Below are positions 33,548 through 43,168 of a DNA stretch of 64,000 bases, piece after piece. The translations under genes and the position numbers were made by a program. Position 1 is the first letter of the stretch; each line of letters starts with the position of its first letter. The notes under the pieces are model-generated. The model was not told the origin of the DNA. It ran no database searches and saw only the letters and a program-made list of their open reading frames with translations. The stretch is from Chitinophagales bacterium (GTDB taxonomy: Bacteria > Bacteroidota > Bacteroidia > Chitinophagales > JADIYW01), in contig JAMLHI010000001.1 in assembly GCA_023957235.1 (NCBI GenBank), positions 248,001-312,000 on the forward strand. Reading direction: 5' to 3'.

Positions 33548-34519
33548 TTATCGGTCGGATAGTATTATCTCAAATGAATATTCTTGAGATATGCCTGGAG
33601 CTATATAAGGAACGGGAAAGTCTGTTATCGAGTTCTGAAGGCTATTTGTCGGAACGATCATCGGCTCAATACAGATAAACATTTTGTCATTATTATAAGG
33701 AGCATAAACTACAACACAACGAAAATTTTCATCAGGCACTATTTCCAATCTATAATCTTCAGTTTCAAAATATGCATTTGAAGCAACTGCCTTGTTAACA
33801 AAACCATCATCCAGATAAAATTTTTTTAGTGGGAAAGGAGATTTTGCAAGAAGATTTTCTGCCGGTTCAAATGCCCCTGTCGGCAATAAACTGGCATCTG
33901 TTATTACATGGTTTTGATAGGGGATATTCAAGACTACTTGTTCTCTATTATACTGTTCTAGAGAAAAATATGGATGAAAGCCAAAAGAAACAGGAAGGTT
34001 TTTTTCATCGTGATTAGTGATTGTTAAACTTATTTCTACCTTATCACTTTTTAGGCGATAAATCAAGTTCAGAGAATGAAGAAATGGATAGTTTAAAAAT
34101 ATTTCACTGTTTTCATCATTGATATATTCAGAAATATACCAAGCTGAATATTCATCAGCCCCCACCTCTTTCACTTGCCACTTATCTGACTTTAACAGCA
34201 AACCATGTATAGGCAATTCATTTGTATCTCTTACTATTTGCTGATTGTTTTCAATCAAATATTTTGTTCCTTCAAAGGTAAAATAGTCAGCACCCAAACG
34301 ATTAGCCCATGGATACATCAAGGGTATCCCTGCAAGGCTTTTTGAAGATTGATATTGCTGTAAATAATGAGGAAACCAAATTATATTTTTGCCTTTCCAC
34401 GACCAATGATAAAGATTATTCCCTAAATCTACCGCAATTGAAACGGATTGATGTTCGTTGAACAATTCAATGACTTGATATCCGTCAATGATTGACTTTC
34501 TACTTCCAAATTGTTCCAT
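33548..34519 (-). CDS. Aldose 1-epimerase family protein
   Basis: This 323-residue beta-sandwich protein has family marks: PLMYPWANRLG, LPIHGLLLKSDKW with the first catalytic-site His, SFGFHPYFSL with the second His, and EPMIVPTNSL with the catalytic Glu. It would interconvert alpha and beta anomers of a hexose or hexose phosphate. It is more like the generic Bacteroidota epimerases than GalM of E. coli. It is convergent with recO across 29 bases. Confidence 0.88.
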   Translation of the reverse strand: MEQFGSRKSIIDGYQVIELFNEHQSVSIAVDLGNNLYHWSWKGKNIIWFPHYLQQYQSSKSLAGIPLMYPWANRLGADYFTFEGTKYLIENNQQIVRDTNELPIHGLLLKSDKWQVKEVGADEYSAWYISEYINDENSEIFLNYPFLHSLNLIYRLKSDKVEISLTITNHDEKNLPVSFGFHPYFSLEQYNREQVVLNIPYQNHVITDASLLPTGAFEPAENLLAKSPFPLKKFYLDDGFVNKAVASNAYFETEDYRLEIVPDENFRCVVVYAPYNNDKMFICIEPMIVPTNSLQNSITDFPVPYIAPGISQEYSFEIILSDR

Positions 34520-34828: not shown

Positions 34829-36346
34829 TTATTCTTCTGTATCGTCTGTATCCTCTACTTCAGAGTTGTCAAAATCGACAGAAAGCAATTTTGAAGAAAT
34901 TTTCTTGTCCGACTTTAGCCCCAAATTTTTTAGTTCGACTGCTTGTTTTATCATATTTCCTCTTCCAGTGTTGAGCTGTCCCAATGCTTTGTCATAAGCT
35001 CTTTGAGTTGAATTTAAGGTTTTTCCTATGTCTTCAAAAGTTTCTACAAATCCAACAAATTTTTCATACAGCAATTCCCCTCTTTTCACAATATCCATTG
35101 CATTTTTGTTTTGCCATTCTCGTCTCCATAAGTCTGAAAAAAGTTTGAGACAAGCAATCAATGTTGTCGGGCTAACCAACAATATCCTTTTAGAATAAGC
35201 ATAGGACCACAATTCAGAGTCTCCTTGAATTGCAAGTAAATAGGCTGGCTCTATTGGAACAAACATCATTGTAAAGTCCAATGACGTATCAATATTATCA
35301 TATTTTTTTTCACTCAGCTGGTCAATATGAGTTTTAGTGGCTCTAATATGTTCTGCTAAAAAAGTTTTTTGCTCTTCACTATCTTCGCTTGCAGAATAAT
35401 TGTCATAAGCAATTAAAGACACTTTTGAGTCGATAATGATAACTCTATCGTCAGGTAAATTTACTCTGACATCCAATCTTTGGGTTTTACCTTCGTCATC
35501 TTTTATAGATTGCTGAACAAAATATTCACGGTCTTTTGTCAAGCCTGATGATTCAAGTATTCTTTCCAAAATCATTTCACCCCAACTCCCTCTTTTTTGT
35601 GCTTTCCCTTTTAATGCTGTTGCTAAATTATTGGCTTCATTACTTACTTTATTGGTTTGCTCAATTAATCCTTTTATTCTCTCTTCCAATGAACTGCGTT
35701 GTTTAGTATCTTCTGTATGGGTAGCCTCCACTTTCTCCTTGAAATTTTTGATATCATCTTTTAGCGGATTTAACAGTGTTTCAATATTTGTTTTATTGGT
35801 TTCTGTGAATTTTTCAGATTTTTCTTCAAATAATTTATTTGCAATTTTCTCAAATTGTAAATGTGCAGTTTTTTGAAGCTCTTCCACTTCAGATTTTTGA
35901 GTGCTTAGCTTCTCTTTTAATGAATCATTATCTGCCATCAACTTACTTACTTGCGATGAAAAGTCTGTAATTTTTGAATTCAACTCATCAATTTTTTTTG
36001 CTTGATTGTCATTGATTAGATTTTGCTTTGATAAATTATCAGCAATAGAAGAATTATTTGCTGTCAGTTCGGATATTCTTTGCTTATGCTTATTGATTTC
36101 TTCTTGTTGGAGCTTATTTGTCGCAAGTTCTGTGTTTAGATTTTGTGAAAATTCATTGACTTTCTCTTCACTATTTTTTAATCTTTCTTCGAGAAGTCTA
36201 TAATTAGTGATTGAATCGTTGTGTTTTGTAAGCAAAGCATCAAACGCTGTCTTTGAAACATTTTTTGTCTTATTCAGCAAATAGGATATTATGAAGGCCA
36301 ATAGTCCTCCAATAAAAAATCCAATCATTACACTTATTAATTCCAT
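34829..36346 (-). CDS. rmuC: RmuC-family DNA recombination protein
   Basis: This 505-residue protein has one N-terminal transmembrane helix (VMIGFFIGGLLAFIISYLL), a long coiled coil over about residues 30-190, and the RmuC nuclease-like domain from about 235 to 460 (KRGSWGEMILERILESSGL, then RLDVRVNLPDDRVIIIDSKV). The last segment has the D...D-S-K pattern of a PD-(D/E)XK active site. RmuC limits recombination at inverted repeats and is thought to cut unusual DNA structures. It starts 22 bases after dpnA and is read in the same direction, so it is probably the last gene of the restriction-modification operon. Confidence 0.92.
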   Translation of the reverse strand: MELISVMIGFFIGGLLAFIISYLLNKTKNVSKTAFDALLTKHNDSITNYRLLEERLKNSEEKVNEFSQNLNTELATNKLQQEEINKHKQRISELTANNSSIADNLSKQNLINDNQAKKIDELNSKITDFSSQVSKLMADNDSLKEKLSTQKSEVEELQKTAHLQFEKIANKLFEEKSEKFTETNKTNIETLLNPLKDDIKNFKEKVEATHTEDTKQRSSLEERIKGLIEQTNKVSNEANNLATALKGKAQKRGSWGEMILERILESSGLTKDREYFVQQSIKDDEGKTQRLDVRVNLPDDRVIIIDSKVSLIAYDNYSASEDSEEQKTFLAEHIRATKTHIDQLSEKKYDNIDTSLDFTMMFVPIEPAYLLAIQGDSELWSYAYSKRILLVSPTTLIACLKLFSDLWRREWQNKNAMDIVKRGELLYEKFVGFVETFEDIGKTLNSTQRAYDKALGQLNTGRGNMIKQAVELKNLGLKSDKKISSKLLSVDFDNSEVEDTDDTEE

Positions 36347-36368
36347 TTGTTTCCTATCGTTTTATTTT

Positions 36369-37307
36369 TCATCTTATTGAATGTCCTTTTACTATTACAG
36401 CTCTCGGTTTGCAGCTGCCCTTCTTCTTTGTCAAGTTTAGTTCTGTTTTATATTCTTCTTTTGGTTCTTCGACTAAAAATAGTTCAAGTTCCTTTTTGTC
36501 ATTAAAACCACCTATTTTCTGTTTGTAAGAAGCTGCTATTTTCGGATTTTCAATTTCAAGTTTTCTGTTCTTGCTTATTGTCAAAAATTCTTTTTCTTGG
36601 TCAATTCCCAAAAATCGTCTGTTGGCCAAATTAGCTGCAATGCCTGTTGTCGAACTGCCTGAAAATGGGTCTAAAATCCAAGCGTTTGGCTTTGTCGAAG
36701 CCAAAATAAGTCTTGTCAAAACTGAAAGCGGTTTTTGTGTCGGGTGTTTGCCACACGATTTTTCCCAAGGTGCAATTGCCGGAAGTTTCCAAACATCTTT
36801 CATTTGCTTGTCTCCGTTGAGTTGTTTCATTAGTTCATAGTTGAAATAATGAGGAACTTTTTCGGATTTTCTTGCCCAAATAATTTGTTCGGTTGAATAA
36901 GTGAAATAGCGGCAAGAAAAATTCGGTGGGGGATTGGTCTTTTCCCAAGTGATTATGTTTAATAACTTAAAGCCTAATTCTGTCAAGATTTGCCCTACCG
37001 AAAAAATATTGTGCATTGTTCCGCTTATCCAAATTGTTGCATCATCTTTCATTTTGTCACGAATTAATGAAAGCCATTTTCTATTGAACTCATTTATGTA
37101 TTCAAAACCGTGAGATTTATCCCAATTTCCTTTATTTACGCTTACGATTTGTCCATTTTGAATGGAAAGTCCGTTGTTTGATAGGAAATAGGGTGGATCG
37201 GCAAAAACCATATCAAACTTATGTTCAAATTGAGGCAATAACTCCATTGTATCTCCTTTGAGAAGATAGAAGTTTTTGTCTTCGGATTTGAAATAAGGCA
37301 CAAGCAT
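36369..37307 (-). CDS. dpnA: DpnA-like DNA adenine methyltransferase
   Basis: This 312-residue beta-class methyltransferase has the catalytic motif IV first (FADPPYFLSNNGLSI, DPPY for N6-adenine) and the SAM-binding motif I late (LDPFSGSSTTGIAA). It resembles DpnA of the Streptococcus DpnII system, which methylates GATC also on single-stranded DNA and so protects incoming DNA during transformation. Neighbouring Dam-type methylase and DpnII-type endonuclease genes support the assignment. It begins immediately after the stop of the unknown gene (TAA then ATG). Confidence 0.88.
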   Translation of the reverse strand: MLVPYFKSEDKNFYLLKGDTMELLPQFEHKFDMVFADPPYFLSNNGLSIQNGQIVSVNKGNWDKSHGFEYINEFNRKWLSLIRDKMKDDATIWISGTMHNIFSVGQILTELGFKLLNIITWEKTNPPPNFSCRYFTYSTEQIIWARKSEKVPHYFNYELMKQLNGDKQMKDVWKLPAIAPWEKSCGKHPTQKPLSVLTRLILASTKPNAWILDPFSGSSTTGIAANLANRRFLGIDQEKEFLTISKNRKLEIENPKIAASYKQKIGGFNDKKELELFLVEEPKEEYKTELNLTKKKGSCKPRAVIVKGHSIR

Positions 37308-37862
37308 TTATCTTCTATTATGTGTTGCAACTGCAACTATTTTATAAATGTCCTTATGTTCTTCAAGTGCTTTCAATAGATTTCTGAACATATATGCAGT
37401 AGATAAGTTTGTTTTTTCTTGTATCATCAAGAGTTTAGCAATTAGATACAAAAACTTAATGCTGTATTCTCCTTTGTTTGCAAGTCCTGGATACTTTGCA
37501 GCTTCAAGATTTGCTTCATTCTTTAACAGTTCTACATCCAACAAAGTGTTTCTCTCTGAATCAGACTTCAATGGCTTAATATGATTATCCCATTGGTGAA
37601 TTAAAAAGTTTAGAAACTTTTTTGTTTCAACACTATTATGATTCATTTTTAAAATTGCATCAACTGCCCAATGTATGTGTTTGGGTGTTCTTATTCTCGA
37701 CCAACCTGATTTACTTGAACTATCTTTTTGTCTGTATCGAAGCAATAAATCATAATCAGATAAAGTCCCTTGATAAACCCCAAGAATATAGGTGTCATTA
37801 ATTTCTATCGTAACCAAAGGTTCAGTCCCTTTGACCTTCATATGTGGTAGTTTTTTCACCAT
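37308..37862 (-). CDS. Unknown protein inside the DpnII-type operon
   Basis: This 184-residue protein is not recognised. The start is either Met1 or Met8 (HMKVKGTEPLV). It overlaps the endonuclease gene by seven bases and abuts dpnA, so it is a translated member of the operon. The first half seems beta-rich (PLVTIEINDTYILGVYQG); the second half is helical and charged. There is no signal peptide, membrane segment, nuclease motif or obvious helix-turn-helix. Possible roles are a controller, an endonuclease accessory or a separate defence component; none is shown by sequence. Confidence 0.7.
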   Translation of the reverse strand: MVKKLPHMKVKGTEPLVTIEINDTYILGVYQGTLSDYDLLLRYRQKDSSSKSGWSRIRTPKHIHWAVDAILKMNHNSVETKKFLNFLIHQWDNHIKPLKSDSERNTLLDVELLKNEANLEAAKYPGLANKGEYSIKFLYLIAKLLMIQEKTNLSTAYMFRNLLKALEEHKDIYKIVAVATHNRR

Positions 37863-38698
37863 TCGCTAATTACATTTTCGGATTTTATTTTTTCAATAAA
37901 GTTGTTTAAGGTAGTAAGGTTATACAAACTCGGAATAATGTTATACGCTTCTTCCAATTTGTTCTTGGCTGATAGCCAACCTTGACCGTCTGTAATCCAA
38001 ACAAATTCGTAGTTTTTGTATTGATTGATTTTAGGTGCAACATCAGAATATGATCTTGCGGTTTCGTTCAACTTTGAGCCACCGCCATTGTAGAAATTGG
38101 TTTCAATAAGATACGTTTTCTTTTTTGTTTTAATTACGAAATCAAAGCGTTTAACGTCTGCACCCAAACTTAATATCTCGGGAAACGCTGTATTGCTTAC
38201 TTCCTTTTTGTAAAAGACTTTGGCTTTGTCAAAGAATAGCGAAACTGCTTTTGACATATTTTCTCCACCCCTGTTTTTTCTTGCGTTTGTGTCTAATCCG
38301 ACTTCAATGCCAAAAACGTAATCCACTAAATTAGTAACATCTTTATTTCTAAAAACTACTGCCAATCCTGTTTCTTCAATGTATTCAAAAATGCTTTTAG
38401 GCGAAGTGAAATAGGAATCAAGCATCACTATTTCGCCTTTTTTGTTGAAAGTCTTAGCGTTTTTGTTTTTACGGATTGCAATAAGAATATCTAAAACTTC
38501 AAAAGCTTTCGGATTTTCTTCGTAAAGTTCTTTTACAGCTTCTTTCAAATTTTCTTTACCAATCAAGTAATTCAATTGGTTGAGTTTAATAGAAATTTTA
38601 TTTACGTTGCCTTTAATTTTCTTGAAGTCTGTGAAATAGTCAAGAGTAGCGTTTGTTTCTGATAATTGCGATAAGAAGATTTTAAATTGCTCTGACAT
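37856..38698 (-). CDS. dpnB: DpnII-type restriction endonuclease (predicted GATC specificity)
   Basis: This 280-residue protein matches the DpnII/MboI endonuclease family. The segment RGGENMSKAVSLFF precedes the predicted active site, in which KRFDFVIKTKKKTYLIETNF provides the acidic pair (Asp and Glu, the latter in ETN rather than the more usual ExK). WITDGQGWLSAKNKLEEAY follows. It would cut unmethylated GATC. It overlaps dpnM by 17 bases, giving the Dam-endonuclease order of DpnII loci. GATC sites are present in the window (for instance near 2200 and 4810), so the host depends on the methylases. Confidence 0.9.
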   Translation of the reverse strand: MSEQFKIFLSQLSETNATLDYFTDFKKIKGNVNKISIKLNQLNYLIGKENLKEAVKELYEENPKAFEVLDILIAIRKNKNAKTFNKKGEIVMLDSYFTSPKSIFEYIEETGLAVVFRNKDVTNLVDYVFGIEVGLDTNARKNRGGENMSKAVSLFFDKAKVFYKKEVSNTAFPEILSLGADVKRFDFVIKTKKKTYLIETNFYNGGGSKLNETARSYSDVAPKINQYKNYEFVWITDGQGWLSAKNKLEEAYNIIPSLYNLTTLNNFIEKIKSENVISEW

Positions 38699-39605
38699 AT
38701 TCTTGACTTGTAACTTGGTTTGTAATTAATAACTCTTTCAATGCACCCCTTTTTTCCGGATTAGCATTGATACTGCGTCTTGCATCTACTCTTTGAATAT
38801 TGAAATCAGAATATAAATTATCAAAGAAATTATCATTCTCATCTTTGCCTTTAACGTCTGAATTACTCAAAATCCAAGTATGCCCCAATGTGTCAAGTTT
38901 GTGGCAAAAATCTCTTAGTCTGATTTGTTCGGTATCATTAAACTCGTCTTTTGCATAAGAGTTGAAACTCGAAGTTTTGCTTAACGGTTTATATGGTGGG
39001 TCGAAATAAAACAGCGTGTTACTGTCTGCATAATTCAGAGTTTCTTCATAGTCACCACAAAGGATTTCCACTTTCTGCAATGCTTGACTTACTGATAAAA
39101 TATTTCCCTTGTCGCAAATGGTTGGTCTCTTGTAACTGCCCATTGGCACGTTGTATTCATTTTTACGATTTACTCGGTAAAGTCCGTTGAAACAAGTCCG
39201 ATTGAGAAAAATAAACAAAGCAGATTGTCCGCTCTGTTCTCCTTTTCTTGTATTGTACAATTCTCTTTTTTGATAGTAGTATTCTTTTTTTTCTTCGGAT
39301 TTGTTTTCCAAAGAATGAAATTCACTTTGCAATTGTTGTAGAATAGAAATCAATTCTTTGGGTTTCGAAGCTATGGTTTTGTAAGTATTTATTAAATCCT
39401 CATTAATGTCGTTTATGACAGCTTTTTTAAGATTTGGAAAGTTATTCAACATCCAAAACAAAACAGCTCCGCTTCCAACAAATGGTTCAATATATGTGAA
39501 TTTGTTATTAGAAATGTCTTTTGGCAAAGCCTTTTCAATGTCGTTAATGAGCTGTGTTTTACCACCTGCCCACTTCAAAAATGGTTTTGCTATCCTGTCT
39601 GTCAT
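38682..39605 (-). CDS. dpnM: Dam/DpnM-type DNA adenine methyltransferase (D12 class)
   Basis: This 307-residue alpha-class adenine methyltransferase has motif I at the N terminus (KPFLKWAGGKTQLI), the target-recognition region in the middle (FNGLYRVNRKNEYNVPMG) and DPPY near residue 200 (FYFDPPYKPLS). This is the protective methylase of a DpnII-type system and would methylate GATC. It is the first gene of a minus-strand operon dpnM-dpnB-unknown-dpnA-rmuC. Methylase before nuclease lets protection build up first. Confidence 0.92.
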   Translation of the reverse strand: MTDRIAKPFLKWAGGKTQLINDIEKALPKDISNNKFTYIEPFVGSGAVLFWMLNNFPNLKKAVINDINEDLINTYKTIASKPKELISILQQLQSEFHSLENKSEEKKEYYYQKRELYNTRKGEQSGQSALFIFLNRTCFNGLYRVNRKNEYNVPMGSYKRPTICDKGNILSVSQALQKVEILCGDYEETLNYADSNTLFYFDPPYKPLSKTSSFNSYAKDEFNDTEQIRLRDFCHKLDTLGHTWILSNSDVKGKDENDNFFDNLYSDFNIQRVDARRSINANPEKRGALKELLITNQVTSQEYVRAI

Positions 39606-39937: not shown

Positions 39938-42900
39938 CTATTCTATCCACTCAAAATTTGGCAATCCATCTGGTTGGATATAAATCAATGCGGTTTCTGA
40001 TATCTCATAATTCATCTCTTGAAGTGCCTGCCGATAACGTTTAATATTCTCAATATTCTTTTTCTTATTGACAGACTCCTGACCAGTTTTAAAGTCATAA
40101 AGCTTTCCTTGTCTCCCATTCAGTATTAGCAAATCAAATCTATAAAGATTGCCTTCAAACACCAATTCTCTCTCCGTAAGAAACTCCCCTTCATTTTCAT
40201 ATAAATCCTGTATTTGAGGGGCAGAAAAAAATGTTTTGACTCTTTCAAAGACAGTTTCTTCCGTTGCTTTATCTAAATAATACCGATGTGTGATATTCAA
40301 AAATATTTTTTCAATGCTAGCTTTCACTCTATATAGAGAAAGAACTTCATGAATCATTTCTCCTATGATTATCTCAAGATTTTGAAATGGAATTGGAGCC
40401 AATGGGATAGCCTCTTGCTGTGAGCTTGCTGAAAGATTTATTTCTTTCTCAACCAATTGGCAATTCTTATCTTGTTCAATATATTTATGCTCTTCACGAC
40501 CAAACTGATAAGTGTTATCATCTATAAATTGTTCTGCCTGAGAATGCTGTAACCCATTATACATTAACTGACCTATATGGGCACTTTCAGAATTTCCTTT
40601 AGGAATTTCGCTGACAACATAAATTTTTTCCTTGGCTCTTGTCAGTGCTACATAAGCAACATTCAAATTGTCACAGGCTTGCAAGATTACTTCTTCCTGA
40701 AAATCTCTTACATAAAGAGATTCCCCTGCTTTTTTAAAATCTATTGGTAAAGTCTTAAATCCTTTTTTAGCTTCGGAATCTAATATCTCTGGCCACAAAA
40801 TCGGTTGTTTCAGAGGGGAAGATTCTACTATGCCCCATTGAAAAAAAGGAAGTAATACCACATTGAATTCTAAGCCTTTAGATTTGTGAATTGTAATAAT
40901 CGGAATGGCATCTGTATCTCCAGAAATCGAAATAGATCTTTCTTTGATTTCCCACCATTCTAGGAAACTATTAATTGAAATTTGATAATTTTCAGATTGA
41001 TAGATAAATACCATATCTAAAAACTGTTCTACATAAATATCTCTATGTTCATGTAGGTTCAATGTGTCAATGAGATGTAAGACAATATCGTATATAGATA
41101 ATGCTTCCAATATCTGAATATGCTCTTCTGCTACCAATTGGGGAATCCATTTCTGTATAAACTCCTCTCGTCTTTCAAAAATCTCTGAATGTTCTTCTAG
41201 CTTAAGATGCACTTCTTTATAATAATAGAGTACAGATACGATATTGACTTCCTCTTTGGGATTGAGCAGCAATCTTAGTGAGCATAATATTAATTGAATA
41301 ATAGCTTGAGAATCAAACAACAAAGCTTCTGAGGTCATAATGGGAAGACCTATTTTCTTGAGAAAACCTGAAACTTTGACCGCTTCTTTGTTTGTCTTTA
41401 CTAAGATAGCAATGTCTTTATATTGATATTTTAGTTCAGTGGTCAATCTAGAAATAGTACTTTTCAAGTATTGAGGAACAAAATCATCGGAGCTTTCCTC
41501 ATCATCTTCCTCTTTGCCTTTCTTGGACGCTTTATGTACAAATTTCCATTCAACAAATCCTCCCAATTTGGCATTCATCTCTTGCACAGAAGATTCAAAT
41601 GTGTATAATTGATGAATAGTATCATGATCAATGGGTGCTATTTGGGGGGATATTCCATATTTCCTTTCTATATATTGTTGAACTTCATCTGGGAGCATGG
41701 ATATCCACTGATTATTAAATGTGATAATATTAGAAAGACTTCTATAGTTTTTATTTAAAATCAATTGGGTTTTCTCCTCATTCCAAAATGTCTTTAAATC
41801 GGACTGTACCCCTTTTTGAATTAACTGAAAATTTCCTCCTCTCCATCTATAAATTGCCTGTTTAGCATCTCCTACTATCAACACCTTGCAACTTTCTCTA
41901 TGAGATAAAATCTCAATTATCAATGGAAGTAAATTTTCCCATTGTAGGCTACTAGTATCTTGAAATTCATCCAATAAAATATAGCGATATTTATTGCCTA
42001 TCCGCTCATAAAGAAAAGGAGCGCTAGTATTTGTTACAACCTTTTGAATTAATTGATGGTTATCTGAAATAAACATCAGTCCATTCTTTTCGCGATATTC
42101 TTTCATTTTGTCAACCACATTTGTTAGCAGACCCAATGCTTTTAAATATTTTCTAAATCCAGAAGCCGTATTATAAAGAATGATGCCTTCTCTGAAAAAC
42201 TGCAAAAATTCTTTCACAAGAGGAAATAATTGATTATTCCAAACTGAAAGTTTAGACTCGACATCCGACAGTTTATAAGCTTCTTTTTTAAATGGATTAT
42301 TACCCTCATCGATTAATTCCAAAACCTTTTTACTATAGTGTAATTTATTGGGTTCAATTAGAAATTTTTTCGTTTGAGAAGGAAAATGATTTCCAGAGAA
42401 ATAACCATTCTCCAATTGTTCACTTACAATGATATCTGTGATTTTTTGGGCATAATCTGTAACCTTGCTAGTAAATACATTTTCTTCTTTCTTAAACTCC
42501 GTATATAATTGACCTAATAGCTCTAAAGGGAAATTTAATTCGACTCGACCAATATGCTCTTTGAATAATTCTTTGGACAATTGCTTGATCATTTCTTCGG
42601 GTTGCCACATTTTGCCTTCCTCCAAATTTTCAGTAGCAATATCTTTCAGCCACCTGCTCAACAATTGATTTTCCTGATGTGAATAATCTTCCAATAGATT
42701 TGCCAAAGATTCTTCAAGTGCAGTAGTAGTATCCATACTGACGGTGGACATATTCAGCAACTTCAGTTCCAATAAAAACGACTTAACAATTCTATTGAAG
42801 AATTTATCAATCGTCATGATTGAAAATTGTGAATAATCGTGTAATATTTTTCCCAAAGCAATTTTGGCTTTCCATACCAATCGCTGAAAGTCCCAATTGG

Positions 42901-43168
42901 GGTTGTCTGCTAAAAGCGATTGAGCGATAGAGCTATTCTTAGCCTCTTCTTCATTTGACAAACGACTGATTTCAGTCAAAAAATCCAAGATCCTTGACTT
43001 CATCTCTTCAGTAGCTTTATTTGTAAAAGTAATGGCTAATATTCTATCATAATTACAAAATTCGGCTTTCTCAAAATCTAAAATAATTTGTAAATACATC
43101 TTAGCCAGCGTATAGGTCTTTCCCGAACCAGCAGAAGCTTTACATAATACTAAATTTGCAGACGTCAT
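39938..43168 (-). CDS. AddA/RecB-like helicase-nuclease (UvrD superfamily)
   Basis: This 1,076-residue SF1 helicase has its Walker A at the N terminus (ASAGSGKTYTLA), motif Ia ITFTNKATEEMK, Walker B ILLDEFQDTS, motif III VGDAKQAIYRWRGG, motif V ITIHKSKGLEFN and motif VI VALTRAKEKIYVV. A C-terminal PD-(D/E)XK nuclease domain is shown by LLILNGRQGKLYDFKTGQES. Together these fit the AddA subunit of the double-strand-break resection enzyme found in Bacteroidota. The AddB-type partner, usually adjacent, is not in this window. Confidence 0.9.
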   Translation of the reverse strand: MTSANLVLCKASAGSGKTYTLAKMYLQIILDFEKAEFCNYDRILAITFTNKATEEMKSRILDFLTEISRLSNEEEAKNSSIAQSLLADNPNWDFQRLVWKAKIALGKILHDYSQFSIMTIDKFFNRIVKSFLLELKLLNMSTVSMDTTTALEESLANLLEDYSHQENQLLSRWLKDIATENLEEGKMWQPEEMIKQLSKELFKEHIGRVELNFPLELLGQLYTEFKKEENVFTSKVTDYAQKITDIIVSEQLENGYFSGNHFPSQTKKFLIEPNKLHYSKKVLELIDEGNNPFKKEAYKLSDVESKLSVWNNQLFPLVKEFLQFFREGIILYNTASGFRKYLKALGLLTNVVDKMKEYREKNGLMFISDNHQLIQKVVTNTSAPFLYERIGNKYRYILLDEFQDTSSLQWENLLPLIIEILSHRESCKVLIVGDAKQAIYRWRGGNFQLIQKGVQSDLKTFWNEEKTQLILNKNYRSLSNIITFNNQWISMLPDEVQQYIERKYGISPQIAPIDHDTIHQLYTFESSVQEMNAKLGGFVEWKFVHKASKKGKEEDDEESSDDFVPQYLKSTISRLTTELKYQYKDIAILVKTNKEAVKVSGFLKKIGLPIMTSEALLFDSQAIIQLILCSLRLLLNPKEEVNIVSVLYYYKEVHLKLEEHSEIFERREEFIQKWIPQLVAEEHIQILEALSIYDIVLHLIDTLNLHEHRDIYVEQFLDMVFIYQSENYQISINSFLEWWEIKERSISISGDTDAIPIITIHKSKGLEFNVVLLPFFQWGIVESSPLKQPILWPEILDSEAKKGFKTLPIDFKKAGESLYVRDFQEEVILQACDNLNVAYVALTRAKEKIYVVSEIPKGNSESAHIGQLMYNGLQHSQAEQFIDDNTYQFGREEHKYIEQDKNCQLVEKEINLSASSQQEAIPLAPIPFQNLEIIIGEMIHEVLSLYRVKASIEKIFLNITHRYYLDKATEETVFERVKTFFSAPQIQDLYENEGEFLTERELVFEGNLYRFDLLILNGRQGKLYDFKTGQESVNKKKNIENIKRYRQALQEMNYEISETALIYIQPDGLPNFEWIE

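Follow-up and report, generated by a model that had tools for sequence, protein, structure and literature searches.

What do an unannotated gene and an rmuC gene do in a packed run of DpnII-type restriction genes, and does either of them belong to the system? The run lies in a 64,000-nucleotide stretch of a Chitinophagales bacterium contig (JAMLHI010000001.1), here called the window, and consists of five minus-strand genes (Table 1). As the original prediction had described, dpnM and dpnB overlap by 17 bases, dpnB overlaps the 184-residue gene (unk, our working name) by 7 bases, unk and dpnA are separated by 0 bases, and rmuC follows dpnA after 22 bases; all five open reading frames are found at the predicted places, and Pfam supports four of them. 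A D12 methylase, a beta-class adenine methylase and a PF04556 nuclease together in one operon identify a DpnII-type restriction-modification system, and the same three enzyme families make up DpnII/MboI-type systems such as DpnII of Streptococcus pneumoniae. The nearest solved structure to the window's dpnM is DpnM (2dpm, E 8e-53), and its relatedness to 2dpm and Dam suggests that the cassette is specific for GATC. The classic DpnII locus has three genes only, with no counterpart of unk. In contrast, the order in the window is dpnM-dpnB-unk-dpnA, with a fourth conserved gene; a three-gene make-up is no enzymatic requirement, and the fourth gene is present both here and in 45 of 77 other loci, where it accompanies a DpnII nuclease.

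Table 1. Genes of the cassette, the inserted block and its flanks, in window positions
Gene	Assignment	Position	Strand	Remarks
dpnM	D12-class (Dam/DpnM) adenine methyltransferase	38682..39605	-	PF02086 MethyltransfD12, 1.5e-68; first cassette gene
dpnB	DpnII-family endonuclease	37856..38698	-	PF04556, 9.9e-97
unk	unannotated, 184 aa	37308..37862	-	78 relatives; AlphaFold model, pLDDT 89
dpnA	N6_N4 (beta-class) adenine methyltransferase	36369..37307	-	PF01555, 8.7e-59; last cassette gene
rmuC	foreign copy within the inserted block, outside the cassette	34829..36346	-	PF02646, 1.9e-97
epimerase-like gene	left flank of the insertion	33548..34519	-	2 bases from the UvrD-like gene in G001
UvrD-like helicase gene	right flank of the insertion	39938..43168	-	69% identical orthologue in G001, beside the epimerase gene

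We find that dpnM, dpnB, unk and dpnA (36369-39605) are one mobile four-gene restriction-modification cassette, probably of GATC specificity. When the window is compared with five other cassettes, DNA homology spans from the start of dpnM into dpnA, where it stops shortly before that gene ends. The whole block is an insertion between two genes that are adjacent in a congener without the system (G001), where 2 bases separate the UvrD-like gene from the epimerase gene, and where the recO-like and further flanking neighbours are conserved with the window. The window's rmuC is only 42-43% identical to the congeners' copies, compared with 68-86% for the flanking genes, and is 78% identical to the copy in genome G572; in a tree it groups with G572, apart from the congeners' rmuC genes, which cluster together. 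The gene is thus foreign to the genus and was acquired horizontally, either together with the cassette or separately, between the same two flanking genes. Two readings of rmuC had been proposed, as an added effector of the system or as the old neighbour of the insertion. The second is rejected because the UvrD-like and epimerase genes of G001 are adjacent with no rmuC between them, and because the window's copy is foreign.

The effector reading draws on the position of rmuC 22 bases downstream of dpnA, on its foreign origin within the inserted block, on its RmuC domain (PF02646) and on the action of RmuC domains in Shield phage defence (PMC10270631). As with ShdA RmuC in Shield, an RmuC-domain protein is found here near defence genes; unlike it, the window's rmuC, of which we found no second copy in the genome, shows no link to the system at other loci. 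It adjoins none of the 77 other unk loci and so is no regular effector of the system, cassette homology ends within dpnA, and its closest relatives adjoin no dpnM, dpnB, unk or dpnA. The best PADLOC match of rmuC is RTasRmuC, but no reverse transcriptase is adjacent, its neighbours being dpnA and the epimerase-like gene. We consider an added effector role of RmuC in this restriction system most improbable. Since RmuC domains can defend against phage, as in Shield, rmuC may still make an individual contribution to phage defence here.

Across window positions 1-34800 and 39700-64000, GATC is strongly depleted (observed/expected 0.28); the most depleted four-base palindrome there is CGCG (0.14). 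In the comparison set (L101-L106), congeners and family members without unk are equally depleted in GATC (0.22-0.31), and genomes G572 and G588 show no depletion (0.97-0.99). Avoidance of GATC therefore seems to be older than the insertion.

We now turn to unk. A scan of genome contigs found 78 loci encoding unk or its relatives, in Bacteroidota, Spirochaetota, Aquificota, Melainabacteria/Gastranaerophilales, Clostridia, Bacilli, Patescibacteria and others. Across 65 aligned members, 19 columns are invariant, including G32, S35, D38, Y43, R58-T-P-K-H62, H64, V67, D68 and K72; the RTPKHIH motif is invariant, and QEKTN at 148-152 nearly so. Against close relatives, dN/dS is ~0.06-0.11, similar to that of the methylases. 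Given the 78 loci, the invariant columns and this ratio, unk is no chance frame; it is a genuine unannotated family under purifying selection. The window's protein matches no family at the curated cut-off in Pfam, NCBIfam, PADLOC or PHROGs, and 64 relatives match none in Pfam and NCBIfam. We found no relatives in phage, plasmid and viral-contig collections, and no description of unk in the open literature searched, a search that did not extend to REBASE.

The predicted structure, called for originally, is a confident model (pLDDT 89, pTM 0.85) of a three-stranded N-terminal part followed by seven helices. Searches of the PDB by sequence, with the whole model and with the helical part alone gave weak, scattered matches and no good solved fold. 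The best viral fold match, gp155 of Streptomyces phage BillNye, is not supported as a homologue by profile-profile comparison (hhalign probability 0.4%); with a Foldseek probability of 0.99, a TM of 0.49 and an E of 0.037, it remains a lead. Its gene is at L132:39221-39814, and it has relatives in 87 Streptomyces phages. Among the unk copies themselves, one at L019:7935-8768 is lengthened by an apparent degenerate duplicate of its N-terminal part. Two others (L046:1874-2409 and L073:2386-2595) are broken amid intact dpnM, dpnB and dpnA genes, which suggests either that unk is dispensable or that these MAG assemblies are faulty.

The neighbours of unk place it with the methylases. We scored 77 copies outside the window, using models built from the loci, for genes within 3 kb on the same strand. 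A DNA methylase gene is present in 75 of the 77, and the two exceptions (L076 and L077) are both at contig ends. A DpnII nuclease adjoins unk in 45 of 77, so the gene is far from absent at other DpnII loci. The neighbouring methylases are of two kinds, alpha-class (D12) and beta-class (N6_N4). In eight genomes with a methylase-unk pair, no DpnII family member was found anywhere in the genome. One of these is an Aquificota MAG, and within its phylum unk occurs in 12 of 136 genomes, 11 times directly beside a D12 gene and once cut by a contig end; many Aquificota D12 methylases have no unk. It follows that unk requires a methylase, while the methylase does not require unk. The original view of a DpnII-type system with a genuine added gene holds, and this gene recurs in such operons; the view needs revision in that unk belongs to the methylase side rather than to the cutter and occurs without a DpnII nuclease too.

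Every endonuclease of known specificity beside unk is of a GATC family. DpnII, MutH/Sau3AI and DpnI are GATC-recognising nuclease families, and besides the DpnII loci a MutH-like nuclease adjoins unk in three (L016, L063 and L077) and a DpnI-family nuclease is near it in L011. Outside this set of known specificity, and counting against a GATC reading, a PDDEXK_11-like nuclease adjoins unk in L012, L033 and L055, and a 508-aa-type methylase is present in three unk loci. At two loci, a D12 (Dam-like) methylase gene (L011:2361-3266 and L013:4994-5911) adjoins a DpnI-family gene, with a RhuM-family gene and unk next; DpnI cuts methylated GATC, which makes the D12-DpnI pairing odd.

Gene order bears on whether unk could regulate the operon. 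The commonest order is dpnM-dpnB-unk-dpnA (31 loci), and we also see dpnA-dpnM-unk-dpnB, dpnM-dpnA-unk-dpnB, dpnM-unk and unk-dpnM. A transcriptional regulator comparable to a C (controller) protein would be small, mostly basic and encoded within the operon, as unk is. However, unk can be anything from the first to the last gene of its operon, a controller gene usually comes before that of the nuclease, and no helix-turn-helix domain matches unk at the curated cut-off; we regard a regulatory role as quite improbable.

The divergence of the four genes separates unk from dpnB. Mantel tests on dereplicated four-gene loci used BLAST distances (n=35) and tree distances (n=32). The divergence of unk follows that of dpnM (rho 0.80 by BLAST, 0.72 by tree, p=0.0005) and of dpnA (0.61 by BLAST, p 0.0005; 0.56 by tree), and dpnM follows dpnA (0.62 by BLAST, p 0.0005; 0.71 by tree). 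No co-divergence with dpnB was found, either for unk (0.03 by BLAST, -0.08 by tree) or for dpnM (0.01 and -0.01). By tree distances the unk-dpnM correlation (0.72) is no higher than that of dpnM-dpnA (0.71), and shared vertical descent may be a partial source of it, though dpnB of the same loci shows none. The gene dpnB has been exchanged among cassettes while unk has stayed with the methylases. DNA comparisons also show exchange at gene boundaries. Locus L006 keeps dpnM and unk with dpnB missing. A cassette in genome G061 (L124) matches the window at 78-80% over dpnM-dpnB and dpnA and lacks only 37312-37886, which is unk; because so similar a cassette is without exactly this gene, unk is optional. 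The unk slot of that cassette has an unrelated 88-aa Cys/His-containing open reading frame (L124:6290-6556).

A tight link to dpnM is what would be expected if unk were a dedicated protein-protein partner of a DpnM-type methylase, a stability or activity subunit that itself lacks DNA specificity. Among the genes tested, unk co-diverges most tightly with dpnM (BLAST distances; partial rho 0.68 controlling for dpnA), and minimal two-gene dpnM-unk units exist. At seven unk loci, nevertheless, the partner is a beta-class methylase and dpnM is missing from the surrounding 3 kb, and we judge such a subunit rather unlikely. Pairs of a methylase and unk would amount to complete restriction systems if unk were itself a small GATC nuclease. 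Its constant company of a methylase, as expected of a toxic nuclease, and its conservation of H, D, E and K residues fit that proposal; it matches no nuclease family or fold, would be redundant beside DpnII and shows no swapping of the kind seen in dpnB, which together make a nuclease distinctly unlikely.

The invariant residues raise one more alternative, a guard toxin resembling PrrC, in which blocking of the restriction system would release an HEPN-like RNase. The spacing R58-x5-H64 agrees with the Rx4-6H motif of HEPN proteins, which frequently occur in association with restriction-modification systems (PMC3710099). In the model, however, the motif lies ahead of the first helix and not at the end of helix 3, and we found no HEPN family or fold match, a result that does not exclude the HEPN helical fold. 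HEPN domains are reported fused to nuclease and helicase subunits, not to methylases, and the methylase-side linkage of unk is the reverse (PMC3710099). We therefore hold a guard toxin to be very improbable.

A GATC-site binding protein is favoured over the subunit, nuclease, regulator and guard toxin. Our leading reading, on which we are evenly balanced, is that unk is an optional accessory protein on the side of the methylases that acts at GATC or GmATC sites, its DNA binding suggested by charge, conservation and context. Members are mostly basic (median pI 8.9); part of the family is acidic (10th percentile pI 6.3), which counts against DNA binding. Because the partners of unk include two unrelated methylase classes and several GATC nucleases, the shared GATC site is the simplest common target. 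In the proposed mechanism, unk would bind GATC or GmATC DNA, perhaps hemimethylated, possibly jointly with the methylase and in contact with DpnM. The conserved surfaces R58-K61-H62-H64-D68-K72 and QEKTN would make the contact, and unk would tune or protect the methylation state. A protein of this kind, SeqA-like or Dam-cofactor-like, could be useful beside a GATC cutter or a solitary Dam.

Solitary Dam with its SeqA/MutH readers is similar in that a Dam-like methylase is likewise accompanied by another protein linked to GATC, also where there is no nuclease. In contrast, unk matches neither the SeqA nor the MutH family and its predicted fold differs; for SeqA, there is no match for the window's protein and none among the best 25 families of the 64 relatives. 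A bolder version, which we think unlikely, is that unk is a reader of G(m)ATC sites and forms with a Dam-like methylase a portable epigenetic pair in several phyla, repeatedly joined by interchangeable GATC nucleases; this would be an independent invention of the Dam-SeqA partnership.

Few restriction-modification systems have been studied as well as those of GATC type; even so, unk, a conserved extra component, is apparently unnamed in Pfam, NCBIfam, PADLOC and PHROGs. Sets of methylases and accessory gene that are otherwise stable exchange their DpnII nucleases freely, and the link of unk to the methylase, even without a DpnII nuclease, opens the question of dedicated methylase partner proteins outside Gammaproteobacteria.
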